Shown here: positions 46,037 to 47,050 of the stretch, piece by piece
How positions within the stretch are numbered: position 1 is the first letter of the stretch
Layout: every line of letters starts with the position of its first letter
NCBI GenBank assembly: GCA_030041535.1
Contig: JASHNR010000058.1
Span: 103,271 to 167,270, forward strand
Origin: Nitrosopumilaceae archaeon
GTDB lineage: Archaea > Thermoproteota > Nitrososphaeria > Nitrososphaerales > Nitrosopumilaceae
Reading direction: 5' to 3'
DNA length: 64,000 bases
The notes under the pieces: generated by a model
What the model saw: only the letters and a program-made list of their open reading frames with translations
The model's database searches: none
Told to the model about the DNA's origin: nothing
Position numbers and translations under genes: made by a program

Positions 46037-46456
46037 TTATTCGCCAATAATCTTTACAAGCACACGTTTTGATCTTCGCCCATCAAACTCACCATAGAAT
46101 ATCTGTTCCCATGGTCCAAAATCAAGTTGACCATTTGTTATCGCAACTACAACTTCTCTTCCCATGATTTGTCTCTTAAGATGTGCGTCTGCATTGTCTT
46201 CTCCTGTTTTATTGTGTTCATATTTTGATATTGGTTCATGAGGCGCCAAGTCTTCTAGCCATCGCTCATAGTCTTTATGAAGACCATTTTCATCATCGTT
46301 GATAAATACACTAGCCGTAATATGCATCGCATTAACTAGGCAGATGCCCTCTTTGATTCCGCTCTTCTGAATTATTTTTTGTACATCAGATGTGATATTC
46401 ACAAATCCTGTTCGTGATTGAACATTAAATATCAGATATTCAGTGAGTGATTTCAT
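46037..46456 (-). CDS. YjbQ/UPF0047 family protein
   Basis: [57 protein letters not shown]. Confidence 0.92.
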
Positions 46457-46491: not shown

Positions 46492-46554
46492 TGCAGGCTC
46501 AGAACTCAAGATCCTTCTCATCAAATCAAAGGGATTTGGTCATCAACGCCTGCA
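46492..46554 (-). ncRNA. candidate C/D box sRNA (predicted guide for Cm34 of tRNA-Leu(CAA))
   Basis: Minus strand TGCAGGC-GT-TGATGA-CCAAATCCCTTTGATT-TGATGA-GAAGGATCTTGAGTT-CTGA-GCCTGCA: C, C' and D boxes enclosed by a perfect 7-bp terminal stem. Confidence 0.72.
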
Positions 46555-46627
46555 GCAAGTAATTTTTCTCGTTCCTAATTGAGTCTTTCAAGAAGCTTGA
46601 TAAAAGGCGGTTACGAAATCTAGACAA

Positions 46628-47050
46628 ATGGTAACAATCGATGCTACCTGTTCACTTGAAAGTTTTAGGAAATTCGTAGTCCTAAGTACATGTAATTCGT
46701 TTGTTCCAGAAAGCTACTTGGATGACTATGAAGTGTTTCCTGAACGTGAGACTTCGCCTGGTCTAATCTATGTAGAGGCAGCAGACAAGGTAACTCTCAA
46801 AAAGATTCGTGATATGATTTTTGTCAACGCAAAAGAGGTTCTTGGCATAATTTATTCGTCAAAAAGTGGCAATACAAATCTAAAATGGAGACAAATCAGG
46901 CGCACCACAGGAAAGGTAACTGGCGAGGCATCAACTAATACACTGGTGAACTTGACTGAAGCTGGAGTAATAACACAGGAATGGGTTCAAAATTATCTGA
47001 GGAAAAAGGCAGAAGAGAAACAGGTCAAGCCTGATGAATTAACGAATTAG
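46628..47050 (+). CDS. hypothetical protein
   Basis: 140-aa ORF. Confidence 0.65.
   Translation: MVTIDATCSLESFRKFVVLSTCNSFVPESYLDDYEVFPERETSPGLIYVEAADKVTLKKIRDMIFVNAKEVLGIIYSSKSGNTNLKWRQIRRTTGKVTGEASTNTLVNLTEAGVITQEWVQNYLRKKAEEKQVKPDELTN

Follow-up and report, generated by a model that had tools for sequence, protein, structure and literature searches.

Does the intergenic segment at positions 46492-46554 (minus strand) of the 64,000-nt stretch of archaeal DNA analysed here, referred to below as the window, encode a guide RNA, and if so, which nucleotide of which RNA would it mark for modification? Read from 46554 to 46492, the minus strand has the order TGCAGGC-GT-TGATGA-CCAAATCCCT-TTGA-TT-TGATGA-GAAGGATCTTGAGTT-CTGA-GCCTGCA. 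Box C (TGATGA, 46540-46545), box C' (TGATGA, 46518-46523) and box D (CTGA, 46499-46502) are exact, and box D' (TTGA, 46526-46529) is one base off the consensus of C/D box sRNAs, which have RUGAUGA as box C, CUGA as box D and internal C' and D' boxes. The terminal stem that joins boxes C and D in a k-turn is a perfect 7-bp helix between TGCAGGC (46548-46554) and GCCTGCA (46492-46498). The boxes delimit two predicted guides: the D' guide CCAAATCCCT at 46530-46539, and the D guide GAAGGATCTTGAGTT at 46503-46517, which includes the 10-nt core GATCTTGAGT (46504-46513). The exact C, C' and D boxes closed by a perfect stem, as described in an initial annotation of this DNA, were confirmed in the sequence, and the pattern TGATGA-N10-20-TGATGA-N10-16-CTGA has a single occurrence in the window and none in 100 dinucleotide shuffles. 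A looser scan of the window for C/D-like boxes with a flanking stem returned the element with its 7-bp stem and one other candidate, which has a 4-bp stem only and is probably noise.

The host genome (G000; 1.83 Mb) is archaeal and akin to Nitrosopumilus, Nitrosarchaeum and Nitrosotenuis; the window additionally holds an archaeal SRP RNA and four tRNAs. On one side of the element lies the yjbQ/UPF0047 open reading frame (46037-46456, minus strand; PF01894, E = 5e-39), downstream on the same strand, and on the other a divergent plus-strand gene that starts at 46628. The initial annotation was right that the element precedes yjbQ on a shared strand, at a distance it gave as 36 bp; the measured gap to the yjbQ ATG (46456) is 35 bases. 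yjbQ is the downstream neighbour in the genus and in related genera, including the loci of Nitrosopumilus, Nitrosarchaeum and Nitrosotenuis. Upstream of the sRNA, the segment CGCCTTTTATCAAGCTTCTTGAAAGACTCAATTAGGAAC at 46571-46609 (minus strand) is strongly conserved in the genus and in several related genera. Within it lie a TATA-like sequence, which may act for the plus-strand gene starting at 46628, and the inverted repeat TCAAG-CTT-CTTGA.

The predicted target of the D guide is encoded on a separate contig (G000:C7:5487-5588). ARAGORN labels this tRNA-Leu(CAA) as Ser(CGA), a miscall caused by the 15-nt intron AUCAUGGCAUAGGAA after position 37. When the intron is cut out at 37/38, the flanking exons give AAGGA-CUCAAGA-UCCUU, an ordinary anticodon arm for Leu(CAA). 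The spliced target was directly confirmed by an intronless tRNA-Leu(CAA) of another family (L315, L numbers being our locus handles), where it stands in plain genomic sequence as GAGGACUCAAGAUCCUC. Guides were assessed over roughly 10-12 nt upstream of box D or D' for at least 9 Watson-Crick pairs to a stable RNA that cover the N+5 position (PMC4644070). The D guide and the spliced tRNA-Leu(CAA) pair over 15 nt, with 13 Watson-Crick and 2 G-U pairs, and the N+5 position lies within the duplex: G46507, the fifth base upstream of box D, is opposite C34. The initial annotation had deduced from the guide both a Leu(CAA) anticodon arm and C34 as the N+5 nucleotide, together with a stem containing A31-U39 and G30-C40, the latter read with a U-G wobble. 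Each of these predictions agrees with the genome's own tRNA, which the earlier reader had not seen. The next-best match of the D guide to any RNA other than tRNA-Leu(CAA) consists of 8 Watson-Crick pairs and 1 G-U pair, and only one of 2000 shuffled guides reached 13 Watson-Crick pairs when compared with 16S rRNA, 23S rRNA and all tRNAs. The calculated duplex energy was -22.0 kcal/mol for the spliced tRNA and -16.2 kcal/mol for the unspliced tRNA.

The element and an unchanged guide core were present in all 28 same-genus loci found (L031-L058, among them that of the window); nine of 36 sampled genus relatives, mostly less complete genomes, gave no DNA match. Loci from Nitrosopumilus, Nitrosarchaeum and Nitrosotenuis have other stems and other D' guides together with an identical guide core. 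A covariance model built from relatives matched 218 of the order's 250 genomes, or 181 when only the 202 good genomes are counted, and ATCTTGAG was present in the guide position of all 20 divergent order loci that were read. A phylum-wide search with the model matched 180 of 397 genomes, the weakest matches having been read only in part. Outside the order, 33 loci were read, and 32 of them carry the TCTTGAG guide; the total over all loci read is 34, leaving out L287, whose guide instead matches tRNA-Met. Guide conservation among the hits is partly selected, because the model was built from guide-sharing sequences. Over 85 loci the mean entropy was 0.05 bits for the 10-nt core, 1.17 bits for the D' guide, which varies between species, and 1.07 bits for the stem. 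In the lineages sampled, which span a phylum and include Nitrosopumilus with its relatives, the guide keeps one predicted target.

Covariation was examined in two alignments. In a MAFFT alignment of 22 sequences, four of the seven stem pairs had changed on both sides, and the covariation score was equalled by no shuffle. All seven pairs covary in a wide alignment (113 compensatory cells versus 29.3 ± 4.2 in shuffles), although this alignment was fitted to the model and includes 7 weak antisense rows, making the 22-sequence alignment the cleaner test. Conservation of the boxes, guide and terminal stem in relatives, on which the initial annotation had staked its reading, is thus borne out by a stem that covaries and a core that is near-invariant. 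Within box C, TGATG is invariant in the alignment of relatives. Box D' is CTGA at the same place in L066, L245 and L250, and box C' lies 3 nt closer to box D in L058 and the Nitrosopumilus relatives, resulting in a 12-nt guide region. Box D looks degenerate in some families, with AAGA or GGGA in place of CTGA (L252, L264 and L304, and L251 and L254); the GA required for the k-turn is preserved in each of these loci. The guides of L069, L072 and L074 have A at the position facing residue 41, and the guide-tRNA co-variation that they predict at this residue was not found, as the tRNAs of those genomes have C41. Because the target sequence in the tRNA does not vary, co-variation between guide and target could not be demonstrated.

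The D' guide of the window's element has no target of at least 9 bp in the 16S rRNA, 23S rRNA or tRNAs of its genome and is an orphan there, in keeping with the initial annotation, which had described a degenerate D' box with an unclear target. A target for this guide is not required, because sRNAs that act on tRNAs usually carry one guide without a target (PMC7994747). In other classes of the phylum (L269-L302), this sRNA has CTCT(A/G)GCC.. or GTCTGACCAGG as its D' guide, and these sequences resemble complements of tRNA D-loops around G18-G19. The D' guide of L273 forms 10 Watson-Crick pairs with tRNA-Thr(UGU), and that of L279 matches a Nitrosocosmicus Leu(CAA) tRNA at 10/11 positions, the tRNA in both cases coming from another genome. 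Comparison by eye of the D' guide with the D-loop of the own-genome tRNA-Leu(CAA) in two cases (G043 and G049) gave no match, and an rRNA site common to the D' guides was looked for and not found. In the window's family the D' guide has changed to ATCCCT, for which no target was found.

The genome encodes the proteins that such an RNA would need. Genes for fibrillarin (E = 2e-86) and Nop5 (Nop domain, E = 7e-69) are adjacent on contig C36, and the genome also has two proteins of the L7Ae family. By the established archaeal mechanism, the element would be transcribed and its C/D and C'/D' motifs, folded as k-turns, would be bound by L7Ae, after which Nop5 and fibrillarin would join the L7Ae-bound RNA. 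The D guide would then pair with the anticodon arm of tRNA-Leu(CAA) over residues 30-41 and beyond, placing fibrillarin on the wobble base, and 2'-O-methylation of the ribose opposite the fifth guide base would give Cm34. This modification is held to limit C34 to pairing with G (PMC7668247); in tRNA-Leu(CAA) it would be expected to strengthen and restrict the reading of UUG. Taking the boxes, the covarying stem, the complementarity, the position of C34 at N+5 and the protein genes together, all of them read directly from the DNA, we estimate a probability of about 0.9 that the element is an authentic C/D box sRNA, with the direction of Cm34 formation in tRNA-Leu(CAA) as its best-supported role.

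The close same-strand spacing to yjbQ, which recurs in Nitrosopumilus, Nitrosarchaeum and Nitrosotenuis, would also suit a cis-acting leader of that gene, e.g. an L7Ae-bound k-turn controlling translation, rather than a trans-acting guide, and binding of L7Ae to mRNA k-turns has been reported in archaea (PMC5539422). However, 18 of the 20 divergent order loci retain the stem, boxes and guide with no yjbQ found within ~1 kb (one of them, L257, ends at a contig edge), and only L258 and L259 have yjbQ within that distance. The constant association with yjbQ that a leader calls for is therefore absent. Moreover, a leader would have no need of a match to tRNA-Leu(CAA), yet the guide with that match is the near-invariant part of the element. 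A leader function is extremely unlikely on these grounds, and we conclude that yjbQ is no part of the function of the sRNA.

It is also conceivable that the element is a genuine C/D sRNA put to another use, such as antisense blocking or chaperoning of tRNA folding or splicing, with C34 left unmethylated or modified by a stand-alone enzyme. Mass spectrometry of Pyrococcus furiosus tRNAs, in which tRNA coverage was incomplete, did not detect the predicted methylation of Leu(CAA) C34 (PMC7668247). Against such a use, box D is intact and its N+5 position falls precisely on C34, the GA bases of the boxes are retained, and the genome encodes fibrillarin and Nop5; we regard this alternative as very unlikely. 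Each motif of the element is short, and one could imagine that boxes, stem and complementarity came together by chance. The absence of the box pattern from all 100 shuffles and the rarity of such complementarity among shuffled guides (1/2000) both speak against this, and conservation of the element with covariation across families refutes it, leaving chance assembly a negligible probability.

The intron of tRNA-Leu(CAA) interrupts the sequence that this guide is predicted to recognise. Among the tRNA-Leu(CAA) loci sampled (L149, L153-L193 and L309-L316), all 45 intron copies begin with AU followed by C (41 copies) or U (4 copies), and intron positions 4-8 are variable, at 1.4-1.9 bits. The initial AU(C/U) repeats the exon-2 bases 38-40 (AUC). 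As the start of the intron mimics these bases, the unspliced tRNA presents the full 10-nt target, and in the host genome the whole 10-nt core is still paired with the unspliced tRNA-Leu(CAA), through 10 Watson-Crick pairs and 1 G-U pair. Recognition by C/D guides is reported to extend over no more than 10 nt (Yang et al. 2016, cited in PMC6313347). This arrangement of bases suggests that methylation of C34 need not wait for splicing. The relation between intron and guide is correlative and drawn from sequences that are related to one another; the first intron bases could also be fixed by a splice motif. If instead the intron is constrained by the guide, C34 would be methylated before, or independently of, splicing. 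The broader proposal, that a guide RNA for Leu(CAA) C34 has been present since the ancestor of the phylum and that the intron of the tRNA has been held to a sequence which lets this guide function, is tentative, and we consider it rather less probable than not.

Guides of this kind are known from heat-loving archaea, and the usual picture of archaeal C/D guides is one of variable sets that are most numerous in thermophiles. A C/D sRNA acting on C34 of tRNA-Leu(CAA) has been predicted in Pyrococcus (Clouet d'Orval 2001, in the summary given by PMC7994747). This RNA shares its target tRNA, target nucleotide and kind of RNA with the present element, but it belongs to a euryarchaeal hyperthermophile of another phylum and is likened to it by target, not by sequence. 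A predicted Leu(CAA) C34 guide is also cited from the Lowe snoRNAdb in PMC7668247. The target and mechanism are therefore already known from the Pyrococcus prediction; what is unusual is the depth of conservation. The tRNA-Trp guide of Haloferax and Pyrococcus, which directs Cm34 and Um39, is likewise a C/D guide of a wobble C34, although it resides in the intron of its own target and uses both guides, whereas the present sRNA has a gene of its own and an orphan D' guide. Human SNORD97 and SCARNA97 are also C/D RNPs that act on a tRNA wobble cytidine, C34 of elongator tRNA-Met, but they are eukaryotic, address a different tRNA and comprise two RNAs acting together (PMC6601510). TrmL produces the same modification in bacteria (Cm34, as well as cmnm5Um34), but as a stand-alone protein enzyme without a guide RNA (PMC6313347).

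An Rfam search at the element gave weak generic C/D matches only, with no family at threshold: the best score was 25.2 bits against a gathering threshold of 45 (SNORD103), snoPyro_CD scored 10.4 against 45, and sR4 and the other C/D families were likewise below gathering. A literature search that covered subscription journals thinly returned no paper naming both Nitrosopumilus and box sRNA, and no account of this sRNA family or its breadth. The sRNA provides a ready covariance-model family for annotation, and Cm34 of tRNA-Leu(CAA) may rank among the most conserved tRNA modifications that archaea place by means of a guide. The sharing of one anticodon arm between a tRNA intron and a guide RNA is also a case that lends itself to direct testing.

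Two further RNAs were observed in the course of this analysis. The tRNA at G000:C54:58512-58615 (L147), labelled Pro(AGG) by ARAGORN, has the appearance of tRNA-Gln(CUG) interrupted by two introns, one canonical and one in the D-arm region. A second C/D box sRNA is present in relatives from the order (L287:300-390, minus strand, and L288, L305, L306 and L307). Its D guide core GATTATGAGT is complementary to the anticodon arm of elongator tRNA-Met(CAU), ACUCAUAAUC, and this sRNA is therefore likely a guide for C34 of tRNA-Met.
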